DNA of 45,137 bases, from positions 1 through 45,137 of the IMG/VR virus record IMGVR_UViG_3300009506_000061. One strand, written 5' to 3'. Both the position numbers and the translations under genes were made by a program. Shown piece after piece: positions 10,580 to 32,465 of this stretch (within the stretch, counting starts at the first letter, position 1; every line of letters starts with the position of its first letter). The notes below the pieces were generated by a model. That model did no database searches. It was not told the origin of the DNA and saw only the letters and a program-made list of their open reading frames with translations. The stretch is from a virus.

Positions 10580-11055
10580 GCGCGGACCCGGTGCATGAGC
10601 AGTTCCTTGAAGGCGTGAAAGCGAGCCATCCGAAGGTCGAGTTCTTCGCTGATTGGTTACGACGCAAGGGCTGGCAGGTTCAGGTGATGCCGCAGCGTCT
10701 CGCTCCGACAAGGGCGCAGTGGCGCGAGTTCAGCGACAACGGCGATCTGCGCGTCTGGAAGCCCGGAGGTGATGCGGAGCGGTGGGAGGTGAAGCACCGG
10801 TCGCTTGAGTTCACGTGCGAGCGAGACTTCCCGTTCCGCACGGTCATGGTCTGCACAGTGTTCTCATTCGACAATGCGGATCCGAAGCCAACCGAGTACA
10901 TCATGTTGTCGGCTGGCCTGACCCACGGCCTGCTGATCAACGCGAAGACAAAGCACCTGTGGACGCAGCAGGATCGATCCGATCGCCGGTTCCCCGGCGA
11001 GATCCAGCGGTGCTATTACTGTCCGAAATCAGCGGCCCGATTTTTCAAGCTGTGA
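10576..11055 (+). CDS. PD-(D/E)XK nuclease-like hypothetical protein
   Basis: 159 residues. D57 (NGDLRVW) followed by E71-V-K73 (RWEVKHR) gives the D...ExK signature of PD-(D/E)XK nucleases, flanked by hydrophobic strands. A C-terminal CYYC pair could stabilise the fold or bind zinc. It lies directly upstream of a cytosine methyltransferase (GTGA overlap), a place where a nuclease or repair enzyme would make sense. Assigned by motif only. Confidence 0.5.
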   Translation: MSADPVHEQFLEGVKASHPKVEFFADWLRRKGWQVQVMPQRLAPTRAQWREFSDNGDLRVWKPGGDAERWEVKHRSLEFTCERDFPFRTVMVCTVFSFDNADPKPTEYIMLSAGLTHGLLINAKTKHLWTQQDRSDRRFPGEIQRCYYCPKSAARFFKL

Positions 11056-12182
11056 AGTACCTGAGCGTATGCAGCGGCATCGAGGCCGCGTCGGTGGCGT
11101 GGACCAGGTGGTCGCCGATCGCGTTCGCCGAGATCGAAAAGTTTCCGAGCGCGGTGCTCGCGCATCATTATCCGAACGTCCCGAACTGGGGAGACATCAA
11201 TGACTACCGCAGCTGGCCCGAAGCAACTCCCGATGTTCTCGTCGGAGGAACTCCCTGCCAGAGTTTCAGCGTCGCGGGACTCCGAAGAGGTCTGGCTGAC
11301 CCTCGTGGCAACCTCACGCTCGACTATCTTGGCATTGCTGACCGCTATCGGCCCCGGTGGGTGGTTTGGGAAAACGTCCCCGGAATTCTGTCTGAGGACA
11401 ATGGACGGACGTTTGGAACCTTCCTCGGCGGGCTGGCAGAACTCGGGTATGGGTTCGCCTACAGAGTTCTTGACGCTCAATACTTCAGATTGGCCCAACG
11501 ACGCAAGCGTGTGTTCGTTGTCGGACATCTTGGAAACTGGCGACGTGCCGCAGCGGTTCTACTTGAGCGCCAATGCCTGCGCGGGGATCCTGCGCCGAGC
11601 AGAGAAGAGGGGCCGAGTATTGCCACCGGCACTCTATCGCGTGCTGTTGGCCGTGTCGGAGGCGGCGACGATCCCGGAGCGAACAAAGGCACCGCGCTGA
11701 TCGTCACGGGGCCGGACGAGTCAGAGATCTCGCACGCCGTGAGCGCTCGTGATGCGAAGGGGCCGGACTCACTGCTCGCGCAGGCGACGCTCATCGCATT
11801 CGATACCACGCAGATCACGAGCGACGAGAACCGGTGCAACCCGCAGCCCGGAGATCCATCGCACCCGCTCGCACGTACTGGGCATCCGCCTGCGGTGGCG
11901 TTCGCCGAGCTCGCCGATCAGGTCGCAGCGAATCAAGCACGCACGTACACGCGCGAGGGCACGCACAACTTCAGAATGTCGAACGTGGCGATGCACGGCG
12001 CGGCGGTGCGCAGGCTGACGCCGCTGGAATGCGAGCGCCTGCAGGGCTTCCCGGACAATTACACGATGATCACGAAGAAGACGAAGGACACACCACGCTA
12101 CAAGGCACTCGGAAATTCGATGGCGGTGCCTGTGATGCGGTGGATCGGACAACGCATCGACCTGGTGGAGGGAATCGAATGA
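11052..12182 (+). CDS. C5-cytosine DNA methyltransferase
   Basis: The GTG at 11052 overlaps the upstream stop and gives 376 residues. The ordered motifs of DNA (cytosine-5) methyltransferases are present: motif I KYLSVCSGIEAAS, motif IV GGTPCQSFS with catalytic C69, motif VI ENV (107-109), motif VIII QRRKR (149-153), motif IX RRLTPLECERLQGFPDNYT and motif X ALGNSMAVPVM. It transfers a methyl group from SAM to cytosine, probably to shield phage DNA from host restriction. The target-recognition region (about 165-310) overlaps in part with a second gene in the +1 frame. Confidence 0.93.
   Translation: MKYLSVCSGIEAASVAWTRWSPIAFAEIEKFPSAVLAHHYPNVPNWGDINDYRSWPEATPDVLVGGTPCQSFSVAGLRRGLADPRGNLTLDYLGIADRYRPRWVVWENVPGILSEDNGRTFGTFLGGLAELGYGFAYRVLDAQYFRLAQRRKRVFVVGHLGNWRRAAAVLLERQCLRGDPAPSREEGPSIATGTLSRAVGRVGGGDDPGANKGTALIVTGPDESEISHAVSARDAKGPDSLLAQATLIAFDTTQITSDENRCNPQPGDPSHPLARTGHPPAVAFAELADQVAANQARTYTREGTHNFRMSNVAMHGAAVRRLTPLECERLQGFPDNYTMITKKTKDTPRYKALGNSMAVPVMRWIGQRIDLVEGIE
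11200..11700 (+). CDS. Overlapping gene nested in the methyltransferase gene (+1 frame)
   Basis: The 166-residue frame lies wholly inside the methyltransferase gene. GGGGAG at 11188-11193, six bases before ATG 11200, is a good ribosome-binding site. The protein looks natural rather than shadow-like. Its C-terminal part (LETGDVPQRFYLSANACAG, then ILRRAEKRGRVLPPALYR) resembles a motif I associate with phage hypothetical proteins encoded near or within cytosine methyltransferase genes. The function is unknown. Dual coding is inferred from the ribosome site, length, composition and remembered family similarity. Confidence 0.65.
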   Translation: MTTAAGPKQLPMFSSEELPARVSASRDSEEVWLTLVATSRSTILALLTAIGPGGWFGKTSPEFCLRTMDGRLEPSSAGWQNSGMGSPTEFLTLNTSDWPNDASVCSLSDILETGDVPQRFYLSANACAGILRRAEKRGRVLPPALYRVLLAVSEAATIPERTKAPR

Positions 12183-23876: not shown

Positions 23877-24159
23877 CGAGACACTGCAAGCTGAAGCGAT
23901 CATCGGATTCGACGCCGAGCGCCTGATCAACAGCGAACTCGGTCAGGTGATGATCGGGATCTGCAAGCAGAAGGAGCAGGAAGCCACCGAGGCCCTGCTG
24001 GTAAGTGATCCGAACGACGCGGCGAAGGGCGCATTCCTGCGCTCCGAGATCCGCCGATACCGCGAGTTTCCCGGGCTGCTGCGTTACCTGTACGTGCAGG
24101 GCAAGAACGCTGTGGCCGAACTCGACGTACGACAAGCCGAAGCACCGGAGGACGCATGA
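23869..24159 (+). CDS. Small hypothetical structural or assembly protein
   Basis: 96 residues (MADETLQAEAIIGFDAERLI), mostly helical, with acidic ends. It overlaps portal by 8 bp and the scaffold gene by 4 bp (ATGA). A head-assembly role is inferred from position only. Confidence 0.65.
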   Translation: MADETLQAEAIIGFDAERLINSELGQVMIGICKQKEQEATEALLVSDPNDAAKGAFLRSEIRRYREFPGLLRYLYVQGKNAVAELDVRQAEAPEDA

Positions 24160-25352
24160 GCAAACGCAAGCAGAAAGATCTGCCCGAATCGGGCGGCGCA
24201 CCCGCTGAGACTCAACTGAGCGGGGCCACGAACATGAACCCGGAGCCGACGAGCACGCCGCTCCCGGAGAACGACGAGCCGAACCCGCTTGAGGGCAAGG
24301 ACTTCCACTACCACCAGCGGTCGCAGCTGCTCAAGGAGATCGCACGCTCCGCAGCCGAGCGTGAGGAAACCACGGCAGGAGACATCGGGACCGATGAAGC
24401 GGGGAACGAGGTATTCATTCCAGCAGACGCAGGCGAGGCTGGCGCAAAACCGGCGGCGGCTGGCGAATCTGCAGACGGCGAAGAACAAGGGACTGAGGGA
24501 GATGGTGAGGAGGGTGCTCAAGCACCTGCGGGAGGCGATGCGCAGCAAGGCTCCGCTGCCCCCGCGCCGGTAGACGAGCACGCCGATCCGAACAAGTTCC
24601 GCCGTGTGGTGATCAACGGTCAGGAGCAGTTCGTCCCGATCGACAAGGTGATCGAGCGCGGCATCGCTGCGTACCAGAAGGAAACCGCAGCCGACGTGAA
24701 CCTCGGACTCGCGGCGCAGATCCTCGAGCAGGCCAAGGCGCTGCAGCAGCCGCAGCACCGCGAGGCCCCGCCGAAGAGTCAAGAGCAGAACGCGATGGAC
24801 AACCTCATCGTGGAGACTGCGAAACGGATTCAGTATGGGACGCCTGAAGATGCACAGCAGGCGCTCGTGGACTTTCGCAACATCATCGCTCAGGACGTGG
24901 CGACGACGGTGGCATCCCAAGCGCGGACCCACACGATCGCCGTCATTGACCAGCGAGACGCTGCGAAGCAATTCGGGGAGAAGTATCCCGACGTGGTGAG
25001 CGATCCGAACCTGCTTGAACTTGCCTTCTCGATGGAGGACCGGATGCGCCGCATGGGTGATCAACGCCCGTGGGGCACGGTCTACAACGAGATCGGCAAG
25101 GAACTGCGGGAACGGTACGTGCCGAAAGAGAAGTGGCCTGCTACCGCCGGCGGCGGCGCAGCGCCTGCTCAAGGCGCTCCACAGGGTGGATCGATGGCCC
25201 CGAGCCAAGCGCGGGTTCAGCGCAAGGAGAACGCAACTGCTGCCGTTGCAGGCACGGGCGGCGGCGCACCTCCGAAGGCCGAACCCAAACCACTCACGAC
25301 GGCCCAAGCCATCGCGAAGATGGCGAAGGCCCGAGGGCAACAGATCGATTAA
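24156..25352 (+). CDS. Probable scaffolding protein
   Basis: 398 residues. The N-terminal ~140 residues are acidic, Ala/Gly-rich and disordered-looking (GEEQGTEGDGEEGAQAPAGG). The middle has helical segments (KVIERGIAAYQKETAADVNL). The end is Ala/Pro/Lys-rich with a basic tail (TTAQAIAKMAKARGQQ). This composition and the position between portal and capsid are typical of scaffolds that shape the procapsid. Confidence 0.75.
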   Translation: MSKRKQKDLPESGGAPAETQLSGATNMNPEPTSTPLPENDEPNPLEGKDFHYHQRSQLLKEIARSAAEREETTAGDIGTDEAGNEVFIPADAGEAGAKPAAAGESADGEEQGTEGDGEEGAQAPAGGDAQQGSAAPAPVDEHADPNKFRRVVINGQEQFVPIDKVIERGIAAYQKETAADVNLGLAAQILEQAKALQQPQHREAPPKSQEQNAMDNLIVETAKRIQYGTPEDAQQALVDFRNIIAQDVATTVASQARTHTIAVIDQRDAAKQFGEKYPDVVSDPNLLELAFSMEDRMRRMGDQRPWGTVYNEIGKELRERYVPKEKWPATAGGGAAPAQGAPQGGSMAPSQARVQRKENATAAVAGTGGGAPPKAEPKPLTTAQAIAKMAKARGQQID

Positions 25353-25364
25353 GGAGCATTCAAC

Positions 25365-26363
25365 ATGGCAGGTCAACTGTGGAGCGTCAACTCGCTCGGG
25401 GGCTTTCTCTATGCCCTGAACTTGAGCGATGAACTCCGCGATTCGGTTCAACCGATGACCAAGTTCCGTCAACTGTGCGACGTGAAAGATGCGTCGATGC
25501 AGGGGATGCACAAGGGTCAGTCTTTCACGTGGGACGTCGTGTCCAACGTGCAGACGCGCGGACGGACGATGCAAGAAACCAACACCATGCCGGAAACCAA
25601 CTTCACGATCATTCAGGGCACCCTGACGATCACTGAGGCTGGCAATTCGGTTCCCTACTCGGGCAAGCTCGAGGCGCTCGCGAAGCAGAGCGTGCGGCGT
25701 CCGGTGATGAAGGCACTGCGCAACGACGCAGCGAAGGTCTTCGACATCTTGGCGCACGCGCAATTCAACGCGACGCTGCTGCGGTACACCCCGAACGGCT
25801 CGGCCACGAGCGGCACCTATGTGCTCGTGACGACCGGGACGGCGACTACCACCAGCACCCGCGTCTGGGACGTCGGCGACAGCCGAGCGATGGCGGACGT
25901 GATGAAGGAGCGGAACATCCCCGCTTACGTCGCGGACGACTACTACGCAATCGCGTGGCCCACCACGCTGCGCAGCCTGAAGAACTATCTTGAGACGCTG
26001 TTCCAGTACACGGAGCGCGGCATCGGGATGGTGATGAACGGCGAGCGCGGTCGGTACGAGAACACCCGCTACATCGAGCAGACCAACATCCCGAAAGGCG
26101 GTGCGGTCGATACGACCACGTGGGATCCGTACACCGACACGGCGGATGCGTGGGACACCGCTGGCGACTGGATTTTCTTCTGCGGTGAAGACACGGTGGC
26201 GGAAGCCATCAACACCCCGGAAGAGATCCGAGCCAAGATCCCCACCGACTACGGTCGGAGCAAGGGGGTTGCGTGGTACTACCTCGGCGGCTTCGGCATC
26301 GTTCACTACTCGACTACCGATCCCGCGCAGGTGCGCGTGCTCAAGGTCGATTCGGCATCGTAA
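25365..26363 (+). CDS. Major capsid protein (N4-gp56-like)
   Basis: 332 residues (MAGQLWSVNSLGGFLYALNL). GTLTITEAGNSVPYSGKLEA, followed by helical VRRPVMKALRNDAAKVFDIL and ending GVAWYYLGGFGIVHYSTTD, matches the HK97-fold capsids of the N4-gp56 type as I recall them. An AAGGAG ribosome-binding site stands 8 bases upstream. Terminator-like hairpins follow it. Confidence 0.8.
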   Translation: MAGQLWSVNSLGGFLYALNLSDELRDSVQPMTKFRQLCDVKDASMQGMHKGQSFTWDVVSNVQTRGRTMQETNTMPETNFTIIQGTLTITEAGNSVPYSGKLEALAKQSVRRPVMKALRNDAAKVFDILAHAQFNATLLRYTPNGSATSGTYVLVTTGTATTTSTRVWDVGDSRAMADVMKERNIPAYVADDYYAIAWPTTLRSLKNYLETLFQYTERGIGMVMNGERGRYENTRYIEQTNIPKGGAVDTTTWDPYTDTADAWDTAGDWIFFCGEDTVAEAINTPEEIRAKIPTDYGRSKGVAWYYLGGFGIVHYSTTDPAQVRVLKVDSAS

Positions 26364-28748: not shown

Positions 28749-30340
28749 TGTCGTGGGATATTGAAACGTCGTGCGGCGAAGAGAACGCCAAGATCATGTG
28801 GGAGATCGTGCCCTACACGCGCGGTCTGGTGCTCGATGTCGGCTGCGGCCCGCACAAGACCTTCCCGCACTTCATCGGCATCGACAACCGGAAGGACACC
28901 GCGCTCTTCGGCGTGCAGATGGATCCGGATCTGACGATCCCGGATGCCACCGAGCTACGCCTGATCGCGAGCCGGTCTGTGGACGCCGTCTTCTCCTCGC
29001 ACCTGCTCGAGCACATTACCGATTACAAGAAGGCGCTCAGGGAGTGGTGGCGCGTGATCAAGCCGGGAGGGCACCTCGTGCTCTATCTGCCGCACGCTGA
29101 TCTGTATCCGCGCATCGGGACGAAAGGCGCGAATCCGGATCATAAGCACGACTTCATGCCGCACGACATCGAGCACGCGATGGCAGAGATCGCGAAGGAT
29201 TCGAACGGCTACGACAAGCTGCGCGACGAGAACCGCAACGAGACGAACGAATACTCGTTCTTTCAGGTGTACCGGAAGCGGGAAGACAAGCAGTGCATCG
29301 GCAAAGTTCCGCCCGCCCGCAAGACCGCATGGGTGGTGCGCTACGGCGCATTCGGCGATGCGATCCAGACCGCACCGGTCTTCGCGGCGCTCAAGCGTCA
29401 GGGCTACTACGTGAAGGCGAACGTGAGCACGATGGCGCACGAGGCGCTGCTGCACGACCCGAACATCGACGAGTTCATCGTACAGGACCGCGACCAGGTG
29501 CCGAATCACTGGCTCGACTTCTACTTCGAATACCTGTCGAAGCACAACGACAAGTTCATTAACCTATCTGCAGTGGTGGAGCAGAACCTGCTCGCGACGA
29601 TCGATCGTCCGCACTTCCGGTGGACGAAGGAAGCGCGGCACGCGCTGTGCAATCACAACTATGTCGAGATGATGGGCAAGGTCGCGGGTGTGCCGATCCG
29701 CGCGGTCGACCAGAGATTCTGGCCGTCTCTGGAGGAAGCGAACTGGGCGCACCAGCAGCTGGACAAGATCACCGGCACCGGGAAGCTCGTGATGATCTCG
29801 ATGTCAGGCTCTGCGGTCCACAAGGCGTGGCCTCACATGGACACGCTCATCGGACGGATCCTGCTGGAGTTCCCGAAGTGGCAAATCGCGCTCGTGGGCG
29901 GCGAGTACGACCAGATCCTTGAGACTGGGTGGGAGAAAGAACCGCGGGTATGGAAGCTGGCCGGGCGGATCTCGATCAGGCAGGCGATGGCGCTGGCGCA
30001 GGTTGCAGCGGTGGCGATAGGGGCAGAGACTGGAACCATGAACTCTGTCGCCATGAACGAGAAGGTCGCCAAGATCCTGTTCCTGTCGCACTCGACGATC
30101 GAGAACTTGCCGCGCGACTGGCTGAACACGTGCGCGATGGTGCCGCCCAAGGGCGTGCACTGCTATCCGTGCCACATGCTGCACACTGGCTTCAATTCGT
30201 GCTGGCGCGATGAAGTCACGGGGGTTGCAATGTGTCAGGCAGCGATCGATCCTGACGACGTATGGCAGGCTTTTCTAGTCGCCACCGGGCGACAACGGAG
30301 GGAGCATGGACAACCTGAGAAGCTACTTCTCGCAGGCTGA
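28748..30340 (+). CDS. SAM methyltransferase plus GT9 (heptosyltransferase-like) fusion
   Basis: 530 residues. The N-terminal domain (1-180) is a Methyltransf_11-type enzyme: LVLDVGCGPHKTFP (27-40), then AVFSSHLLEHITDYKKALRE and VIKPGGHLVLYLPHAD. The C-terminal domain (about 193-500) looks like glycosyltransferase family 9, the ADP-heptose:LPS heptosyltransferases: VVRYGAFGDAIQTAPVFAAL, later MSGSAVHKAWP and IGAETGTMNSVAMNEKVAKI. Together it could add and methylate a sugar on LPS or on a virion protein. The fusion with the 26965 gene as neighbour implies a sugar-modification pathway. Confidence 0.8.
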   Translation: MSWDIETSCGEENAKIMWEIVPYTRGLVLDVGCGPHKTFPHFIGIDNRKDTALFGVQMDPDLTIPDATELRLIASRSVDAVFSSHLLEHITDYKKALREWWRVIKPGGHLVLYLPHADLYPRIGTKGANPDHKHDFMPHDIEHAMAEIAKDSNGYDKLRDENRNETNEYSFFQVYRKREDKQCIGKVPPARKTAWVVRYGAFGDAIQTAPVFAALKRQGYYVKANVSTMAHEALLHDPNIDEFIVQDRDQVPNHWLDFYFEYLSKHNDKFINLSAVVEQNLLATIDRPHFRWTKEARHALCNHNYVEMMGKVAGVPIRAVDQRFWPSLEEANWAHQQLDKITGTGKLVMISMSGSAVHKAWPHMDTLIGRILLEFPKWQIALVGGEYDQILETGWEKEPRVWKLAGRISIRQAMALAQVAAVAIGAETGTMNSVAMNEKVAKILFLSHSTIENLPRDWLNTCAMVPPKGVHCYPCHMLHTGFNSCWRDEVTGVAMCQAAIDPDDVWQAFLVATGRQRREHGQPEKLLLAG

Positions 30341-30902
30341 CATCGATCAGGCCTCGCCGGAGCAGCTGTACCGGATGCGGGTCGCTCTTGCGGCCCGAGA
30401 TCCCGCTGCTGCTTCCGCGTTCGCTCCGATCGAGCATCAGGGCGCGATGCGCTCCGGTGTCGGCATCGGTGGAGTGCCGGCGGCGATCGGTCTCGGGGCG
30501 CTCACGGCGGGCTACACACCGGCCAAGTTCGCCGCTCAGAACCCGCAGCTGATGATGGCGATGCCCGGCGGGCAGGCCATGACGCAGTTCGCGCAGTGGC
30601 TCCTGAGCAAAGCTGACGAGCAGGGCGGCAACGCCGGAGCGCAGTCTCCGGCAAGCTTCGAAGAACTCGCCCGCGGCTTCAGGGGCATCGGGCAAGGGTT
30701 GCGCGACTACTTCACCGGCAACAAGCCGCAGGACAACGCAGGCGTCGAGCGCCAGATCCAGCAGCTGCAGAATCCCGAGCAGGTGATCAGCCCGGCTGGA
30801 CAGGAAACGATCCGGCGGCTCAACCTGCAGCCGGGGCCGGAGTTCAACCCGGCGACGTGGGAAACCGCGCCCGACATCATGCGCAGGAAGATGGGGTATT
30901 GA
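30306..30902 (+). CDS. Hypothetical virion-region protein
   Basis: 198 residues (MDNLRSYFSQADIDQASPEQ) with a GGAGGGAGC ribosome-binding site. The centre is Gly/Ala-rich and hydrophobic (VGIGGVPAAIGLGALTAGY). The C-terminal half is Gln/Asn-rich. Probably a minor structural or ejected protein. It overlaps the preceding enzyme gene by 35 bp. Confidence 0.6.
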   Translation: MDNLRSYFSQADIDQASPEQLYRMRVALAARDPAAASAFAPIEHQGAMRSGVGIGGVPAAIGLGALTAGYTPAKFAAQNPQLMMAMPGGQAMTQFAQWLLSKADEQGGNAGAQSPASFEELARGFRGIGQGLRDYFTGNKPQDNAGVERQIQQLQNPEQVISPAGQETIRRLNLQPGPEFNPATWETAPDIMRRKMGY

Positions 30903-32465
30903 GTGGACCCGCTCGAGCAGCTGCTGGCGTCTCAGGGTGTGCGCTCCGGCATCGGTGGTGTCATTGACGCCATCAAGCAGATGTACGGCCAGCACGCCGC
31001 TGTCACGCCGAGTAGCCTCGACCAGGCCGTGCTCGCGGCACAAGGGCCTCGTGCGCCCACGCCGTCGGAGCTTGAGTCGGCGAACGCGATGCGCAATTCC
31101 GTCTTCGGCGAGCAGTGGGCCGCGGAGGATCCGCGCAACGCGAACGCGATGTCGGCGATAGAGCGCATGGCCCAGATGCAGGAGACTGCTGACCCTGCGA
31201 ACTGGCTCGGCGCTGGCGTGATCGGGAAAGCAGGACGCGCAGCGAAGACCGCTGACTCGATGCTCGATCGCATGGCGAAGCCTGAACTCAGGCCAGAGGA
31301 TCAACTCTTCGGCGGTGGCCCGCAGAGTCTTCTCCCTGAAGGTCTGCAGCGCAAATTGCGCACCGAATACCCGGAGGTCGATCCCGCCGGGCAGTGGCTG
31401 GTGGACAAGACGTCGGGCAAGAAATATCTCGGCAAGAAACCCACTGCCGAAGCGGAACTCGTAGCAGAGGCTCGCAAGAAGGCGCAGGCGGCAATCGATC
31501 GCGGGGAATACACGCCCTACTTCGATGTGAGCAAACGCGAGTACGTCGACCCTTCGCTGTATGACTTCCCGGTCGAGACACGCACGCAAGCTCTGCCGAA
31601 GAAGGAAGCGACGATCCAGAAGTACCGCGAGATGGCCGACACTCCGGAGACTCGCGCTCGTCTGGAGACTGCATACGCACGCGGTGCCGAGGATCCCGGC
31701 GCATTCCGCTGGTACGCGATGAAGCAGTTGTTCGATAAGTATGTCGAGCACCTCGGCCCAGAAGAGGGGGCGCGGGCGTTCAAGGAACGCTTTGCTGACG
31801 CGATGGCCGCGACAACCGGCGGAGCGGCTCCGCAGGAAAACTGGCTGATGGCCCACTACGCGAACACGCGACGCGCACAGGGACTTGGACTCCCGCCGAC
31901 GCATCAGCTTCCGTTCCCGATCGGCGGACGATACGCAGCCGGGAACCTCGATATGTACAACAAGATCATCAACGAGGGTCGAGGCCTCGGACTCGACGCG
32001 CCGAAGCGGTACAACTTCTCCGGCAATTTCCTCGGCAACGTCAAGCCGGGCACGATCGATGAGCAGATGATGGGCCTGTTCGATGAAACCGGGAAACTAA
32101 AGGCCCCGCCCGGAGACTCCTACGGCGCATACGAGGACGTGGTGGCGCAACTTGGCGAGAAACGCGGCATCCCGACTGCAGAGTTTCAGGACGTAGCGTG
32201 GGCTGGAGCTAAATCGCTGAAGGAGGAAGCCAAGGCGGCGGCAAAGGGCAAGCCCTACAAGCGAGAGGCTGCGAAGCCGATGATTCAGAACATCAACGAG
32301 ATCCTCGCACGCACATCGATGATAACCGGCGAGACGCAGGAGCAGGTGCTCCGGCGCATGATCGAGGCCAAGGGTCCGCTGTTCAATATCGGCGCGGGCG
32401 CTGTTGCTACTGGTGGGGCGGCGCTATCGTTGCGTGATTACTTCGGATCCGAAGGGGACATCTAA
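30903..32465 (+). CDS. Large virion-region protein with a polyvalent-type domain
   Basis: 520 residues from GTG 30903, directly after the previous stop. Residues about 300-440 (NWLMAHYANTRRAQGLGLPP, NMYNKI-type helix, KRYNFSGNFLGNVKPGTIDE, then PTAEFQDVAWAGAKSLKEEA) resemble DUF7178-like domains seen in large phage polyvalent or injected proteins, as far as I recall. A Gly/Ala hydrophobic end (NIGAGAVATGGAALSLRDYF) closes it. Internal virion or injected protein inferred. Confidence 0.55.
   Translation: MDPLEQLLASQGVRSGIGGVIDAIKQMYGQHAAVTPSSLDQAVLAAQGPRAPTPSELESANAMRNSVFGEQWAAEDPRNANAMSAIERMAQMQETADPANWLGAGVIGKAGRAAKTADSMLDRMAKPELRPEDQLFGGGPQSLLPEGLQRKLRTEYPEVDPAGQWLVDKTSGKKYLGKKPTAEAELVAEARKKAQAAIDRGEYTPYFDVSKREYVDPSLYDFPVETRTQALPKKEATIQKYREMADTPETRARLETAYARGAEDPGAFRWYAMKQLFDKYVEHLGPEEGARAFKERFADAMAATTGGAAPQENWLMAHYANTRRAQGLGLPPTHQLPFPIGGRYAAGNLDMYNKIINEGRGLGLDAPKRYNFSGNFLGNVKPGTIDEQMMGLFDETGKLKAPPGDSYGAYEDVVAQLGEKRGIPTAEFQDVAWAGAKSLKEEAKAAAKGKPYKREAAKPMIQNINEILARTSMITGETQEQVLRRMIEAKGPLFNIGAGAVATGGAALSLRDYFGSEGDI

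Follow-up and report, generated by a model that had tools for sequence, protein, structure and literature searches.

The locus described here raises the question of whether an open reading frame lying wholly inside the cytosine methyltransferase gene of a virus encodes a protein of its own and, if so, what such a protein does. The window, which is the whole stretch of 45,137 nucleotides analysed, is a 45-kb virus record in which genes for RecE/RecT, terminase and head closure are found. The outer gene, termed alpha here, lies at 11052..12182 (+) and begins with a GTG codon that overlaps the stop of the upstream gene by four bases (GTGA, 11052-11055). Its product matches PF00145 (E 2.9e-53) and TIGR00675 (E 4.7e-52), and phmmer aligns it to M.HhaI up to motif VIII and then over motifs IX-X; motifs I, IV, VI, VIII, IX and X are all found, which identifies alpha as a C5-cytosine DNA methyltransferase (C5 MTase). 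The catalytic PCQ of motif IV occupies alpha residues 68-70, and the invariant residues are P68, C69 and Q70; E107, N108 and V109 (ENV, motif VI); Q149, R150 and R151; and G354, N355 and S356. Alpha has its own motif IX, RRLTPLECERLQGFPDNY, which aligns to HhaI 267-318. In the structure model of alpha the catalytic domain is well formed, and the chain is poorly predicted from residue 188 on.

The nested gene, termed beta, was confirmed on the sequence as a 166-codon ATG frame (166 aa) at 11200..11700 (+), in +1 relative to alpha, and the Shine-Dalgarno-like (SD) GGGGAG proposed for it was found at 11188..11193 (+), separated from the ATG by six bases (ACATCA); the assignment of beta draws on the list of open reading frames, on selection tests and on homology to the nested ORF of streptococcal phage MM1. 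A previous sequence-only reading had placed this frame over motifs VI to VIII and the start of the target-recognition region; that coverage holds, but motif IV also lies inside, and the overlap spans alpha residues ~50-216. The same reading took YLSANACAGILRRAEKRG for the C-terminus of beta, whereas these are nested residues 121-138 and 28 residues more come after them. When synonymous codons were shuffled, with the amino acids of alpha kept and codons drawn from alpha's own usage, the nested frame of this gene alone was open by chance with P = 0.035 to 0.083; therefore, the single sequence proves nothing, and it is the comparative evidence that convinces.

The comparison took in more than 150 relatives. 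The loci fetched were 80 viral loci obtained with the nested protein (L007-L086), 80 viral loci fetched with alpha only, 7 loci from bacterial genomes, 80 viral loci fetched with the MM1 nested protein, and a number of named phages and plasmids. The set fetched with the nested protein (L007-L086) is biased, so the principal conclusions are drawn from the 55 non-redundant homologues of the alpha-fetched set. All of these (55/55) lack a +1 stop between alpha residues 60 and 190, against 2.9 expected, while the other four frames (+2 and three antisense) hold stops at roughly null rates; stop-free stretches of more than 130 codons occur in +1 only. Similarly, AT-rich phages of Streptococcus, Brochothrix, Weissella and Enterococcus and a Listeria plasmid have 0 stops in the overlap where 7-9 are expected, and in a negative control of 28 ordinary C5 MTases the +1 stops occur at about the null rate. 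Antisense ORFs, including the 170-codon frame of the window at 11016-11528 (-) over the same DNA, were rejected as candidates because they are not conserved in relatives. The nested frame is spread over P1-like, Vibrio, Caulobacter, mycobacterial, cyanobacterial and Akkermansia phages, and in the annotated phage records that were opened, a small sample, only one gene is given at the overlap in all but the MM1 entries. A stand-alone nested protein was found neither in the 7 bacterial-genome loci nor in 398 Pseudomonadota genomes; with the exception of L185, apparently the remnant of a broken MTase, every genome match of the nested protein sits over an alpha in the +1 frame. A link to phage hypothetical proteins had been suggested for this frame; the family is indeed widespread, but every site checked is the same overlap with alpha. 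The lack of homologues outside the overlap, which had been expected to count against the frame, is correct as a fact and does not refute a nested gene, because a gene that arose by overprinting may have no counterpart at other sites.

In a +1 overlap the third base of an alpha codon is the second base of a nested codon, and the first base of an alpha codon is the nested third base. Among alpha pairs at least 70% identical, the third-base difference at four-fold sites outside the overlap is 0.62 (alpha 1-45), 0.59 (210-310) and 0.60 (315-376), whereas along the overlap it is 0.33 (alpha 50-100), 0.23 (101-140), 0.06 (141-165) and 0.08 (166-195). At alpha 171-190, variability is among the lowest at position 3 (0.16) and is highest at position 1 (0.33-0.47), which serves as the nested third base. 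The stretch at alpha 166-200, that is 11547..11651 (+), has a third codon position less variable than the first, and the nested frame dominates there. This codon-position flip recurs with the alpha-fetched set alone and with a divergent set; it is seen again in low-GC Firmicutes at alpha 166-180 (position variabilities 0.39, 0.24 and 0.19), where the four-fold sites give 0.12, with 0.09 at 136-150, against ~0.6 outside. In addition, the nested similarity to the window was compared with a null in which the synonymous codons of the second sequence were randomised; over alpha 141-190 it lies at z 7-8 above this null for P1-like Dmt, Vibrio K453, CobraSix and an Oscillospiraceae phage, the alpha proteins of which are 30-50% identical to that of the window, and z is ~0 outside the overlap. 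For the first 90 nested residues, like constraint is seen only among nearer relatives, and conservation of the nested frame is confined to its C-terminal part in the P1-like, Vibrio and CobraSix phages.

On this evidence, all of it from sequence, the nested frame is almost certainly a real gene under selection. A long dual-coding segment with both frames conserved, as had been suggested for this locus, is borne out by the openness of the frame, the synonymous constraint, the codon-position flip, the nested similarity beyond the synonymous null and the start with its SD; purifying selection on the nested frame, the absence of which had been named as the outcome that would speak against it, is clearly present.

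The initiation signals were compared in the same relatives. An SD followed by a start codon is present in 49/55 of the alpha-fetched homologues, compared with 16% in shuffles. In most relatives an in-frame TGA (within alpha's Met-Thr) is followed by AAGGAG or a variant of it, ~7 bases, and ATG or TTG, and alpha reads this SD/start stretch as Lys-Glu-Trp-Pro. By DNA comparison, the start-codon place of most relatives corresponds to 11221..11223 (+), which is AAG here and not ATG; in the window the SD of the relatives is lost, the upstream in-frame TGA is lost too, and the window has its own SD and ATG 7 codons upstream. The initiation site of the window therefore appears to have moved and yet to have been kept.

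As for the family of the nested protein, it matches phrog_16143 ("DNA methyltransferase", the nested family of streptococcal phage MM1) with E 4.9e-7, and this family is matched by 68/71 nested members, that of MM1 among them. By tblastn the nested protein reaches MM1 with E 3e-4, and the similarity between the nested frames of the window and MM1 exceeds the synonymous null with z 2.9 (alpha 101-140) and 3.6 (141-190). Pfam and NCBIfam gave no credible match for any nested member, no HNH domain was found by Pfam among the 71 members, and searches of the PDB by sequence and by the fold of the nested model returned nothing. The only PHROGs matches of nested members are phrog_16143 and a weak phrog_1008; the latter is a 329-residue "DNA methyltransferase" that 20 nested proteins match weakly over ~36-137 (best E 2.7e-5), the match sits where alpha would align, and this family perhaps holds mixed frames. 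The most conserved part is a small helical domain at nested residues 107-155, that is 11518..11664 (+), which reads LSDILE..VPQRFYLS..ACAGILRRAEKRG..LPPAL and is predicted confidently by AlphaFold2 (pLDDT 93-97 at residues 121-150), with low confidence outside ~107-155.

The start of this helical domain (LSDILE..VPQRFYLS) is similar to a segment found in frame behind motif VIII in ordinary C5 MTases, for instance LADILENDEDVPESYFLSAE (L290) and a 30-letter segment in L294. A profile of the post-VIII segment scores the nested frames at a median of 9.2 bits in the GC-rich group and 18.0 bits in Firmicutes, against about -2 and -1 bits, respectively, for synonymous shuffles; it gives 67-83 bits on left-out ordinary MTases of the segment type, and on alpha's own frame it gives -3.9 bits, which indicates that the segment is missing in frame. 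Alignment of the full profiles with hhalign chose the same place at E 0.009, with a probability of only 4%. The likeness is short (20-40 residues), its L.DIL part is the natural +1 reading of motif VIII, and the segment type is lacking in some ordinary C5 MTases. Judged by these profiles, the likeness is specific and goes beyond what the sequence of alpha forces; homology or convergence would both fit. A simple frameshift was also weighed as the source of the segment, but it fails to explain that the nested segment overlaps motif VIII itself.

The small subunit of M.EcoHK31I is encoded within the gene of the large one, in a different reading frame. Both polypeptides of this enzyme are reportedly needed in vitro (Lee et al. 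1995). It has been reported that M.EcoHK31I (YGGCCR) is a two-polypeptide C5 MTase in which the larger polypeptide carries motifs I-VIII and X and the TRD, and that M.AquI occurs naturally as a C5 MTase of two subunits, with the split in the variable region (PMC3404938). The locus described here differs from M.EcoHK31I, in which only motif IX is on the small subunit, as alpha keeps motif IX. It resembles M.AquI in that a C5 MTase is proposed to consist of two polypeptides, but the subunits of M.AquI are different halves, whereas here the small protein is nested within a full-length alpha. A hidden HNH endonuclease out of frame in a phage methylase gene, on a mobile insertion, has been described in ShiLan (PMC11855218); here, too, a phage DNA methylase gene contains a second frame for another protein, but this frame lies on the conserved MTase core, with no insertion and no HNH.

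The closest known system is streptococcal. In 5093-group phages two C5 MTase products overlap completely, which has been called "striking", and the same overlap was noted in MM1 and Tn5252, citing Obregon 2003 and Sampath and Vijayakumar 1998 (PMC5601072). The MM1 records annotate the nested ORF as a putative methyltransferase (AJ302074) and as "C5 methyltransferase beta subunit" (DQ113772). As in MM1, 5093 and Tn5252, the nested +1 ORF of the window lies wholly inside the C5 MTase and in the same place (motifs IV-VIII), and the nested protein is homologous to MM1 ORF14. Unlike the streptococcal forms, which mostly lack it, the window and its GC-rich relatives have an extended C-terminal domain, ACxGILRRAxKRGKxLPxxLxxAL. 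In an unrooted catalytic-domain tree, the alphas of the window and of the MM1 type are split by a 100/100 branch, and the GC-rich and Firmicute nested groups fall on opposite sides of a strong branch, so that the tree does not unite them. The pair in the window is a member of the streptococcal overlap kind; by this tree its alpha would sit on a different C5 lineage, and an ancient origin shared by the two alphas may still apply. The overlap itself is known in streptococci, and what is new is its breadth, the quantified selection and the clue to mechanism given by the segment likeness; a literature search found no paper on the breadth, selection or role of the overlap. Meanwhile, the m5C MTase of pneumococcal phage SpSL1 has been reported to methylate 102/113 of its sites in the phage genome (PMC6755750), and its gene (L389:828-1910) contains an unannotated 165-codon nested +1 frame that matches the nested profile with E 2.4e-40. 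This shows that an enzyme of the overlap type works in its native context; a need for the nested protein does not follow from it.

The reading to which we give a little better than an even chance is that beta is an obligately overlapping gene for an accessory subunit of alpha that supplies the post-VIII segment in trans. Beta would be translated from its own internal ribosome-binding site; its N-terminal part of ~100 residues would be an overprinted, mostly disordered arm, and its C-terminal helical domain of ~50 residues would correspond to the segment between motif VIII and the target-recognition region. Beta may dock on alpha, which would carry out catalysis and target recognition, and may give in trans the joining segment that alpha lacks in frame and would need for activity; the alpha-beta enzyme would then methylate phage DNA against host restriction. 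The two-subunit reading is the most economical, and M.AquI and M.EcoHK31I are natural two-polypeptide precedents. The nested protein may also be real with a function of its own (antirestriction, or regulation of the methylase or the host) and resemble the segment by chance or convergence; this is doubtful but has considerable weight, as the likeness is weak and partly forced by motif VIII, the N-terminal half of the nested protein is without a known relative, and its own start and SD fit an independent product. However, no copy of the nested protein turned up apart from alpha, as would be expected of its partner, and the likeness stands far above synonymous shuffles of the same alpha for a segment that alpha's frame is missing.

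The other two explanations deny a nested product with its own start or any product at all. Ribosomes could shift +1 near motif VIII and fuse the catalytic domain of alpha to the nested C-terminal domain, leaving the upstream frame incidental; conservation is best in the final third of the nested frame, right at motif VIII, and distant relatives keep only this part, but the upstream part is constrained in near relatives (0.33 and 0.23 against 0.60 at four-fold sites) and the internal SD and start are conserved, and this explanation is improbable. It is still harder to credit that no protein is made and that a DNA or RNA element, an antisense gene or codon bias accounts for the constraint, with the open frame as a by-product. 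The weak chance estimate for the window alone and the antisense ORF over the same DNA would suit such an origin, but the constraint is three-periodic in the nested frame, the codon-position flip largely refutes it, long stop-free stretches are confined to +1 with the other four frames near the null, and the pattern is repeated in low-GC phages, where the frame should hold several stops. Beyond the accessory-subunit reading, it is tentatively proposed that a widespread and mostly unannotated class of phage C5 MTases, P1-like Dmt included, is two-subunit with the second subunit written over the first, and that the frames exchanged roles: alpha's would be the older up to motif VIII and the nested one the older just after it, keeping the joining segment that alpha gave up in frame.

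In phages of several bacterial phyla, two proteins under selection share a stretch of about 500 bases. Should the nested protein be a required subunit, codon-optimised C5 MTases cloned or recoded from such phages would lose activity, and studies of P1-like methylases and those of other phages would have to be reinterpreted. Long same-strand overlaps could also be studied unusually cleanly in this system, which offers many natural variants and an easy assay (restriction protection).

Several further observations were made at related loci. In a Bifidobacterium longum plasmid (L271; NZ_CP146883, reverse strand, ~192.8-193.4 kb) a C5 MTase of this type seems to be interrupted by an intein, the C-terminus of which (..VYNLEVEDDHSYVAAGIAVHN) abuts the motif IV catalytic Cys; the PF14890 match (E 2.4e-4) is below the curated cut-off. 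In a Parvibaculum MAG (L173/L180) the nested frame continues into methylase motifs IX and X (..RRLTPEECESLQGFP..), and the presence of motif IX in the small frame either parallels the arrangement reported for M.EcoHK31I or results from a sequencing error. The annotation of Mycobacterium phage Dove splits the C5 MTase (L273:1784-2902) into two adjacent genes, after which comes an HNH endonuclease, and the nested frame lies in the first C5 MTase piece. Elsewhere in the window, antisense open frames of 740 and 562 codons at 24084-26306 (-) and 30216-31904 (-) lie over plus-strand frames and are perhaps only mirror frames of GC-rich genes. In PLSDB (e.g., H63-H119), the conserved nested C-terminal domain occurs in 530 plasmid records, mostly from E. 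coli and apparently P1-like, and it mostly lies under a gene named "Dam family" methyltransferase.
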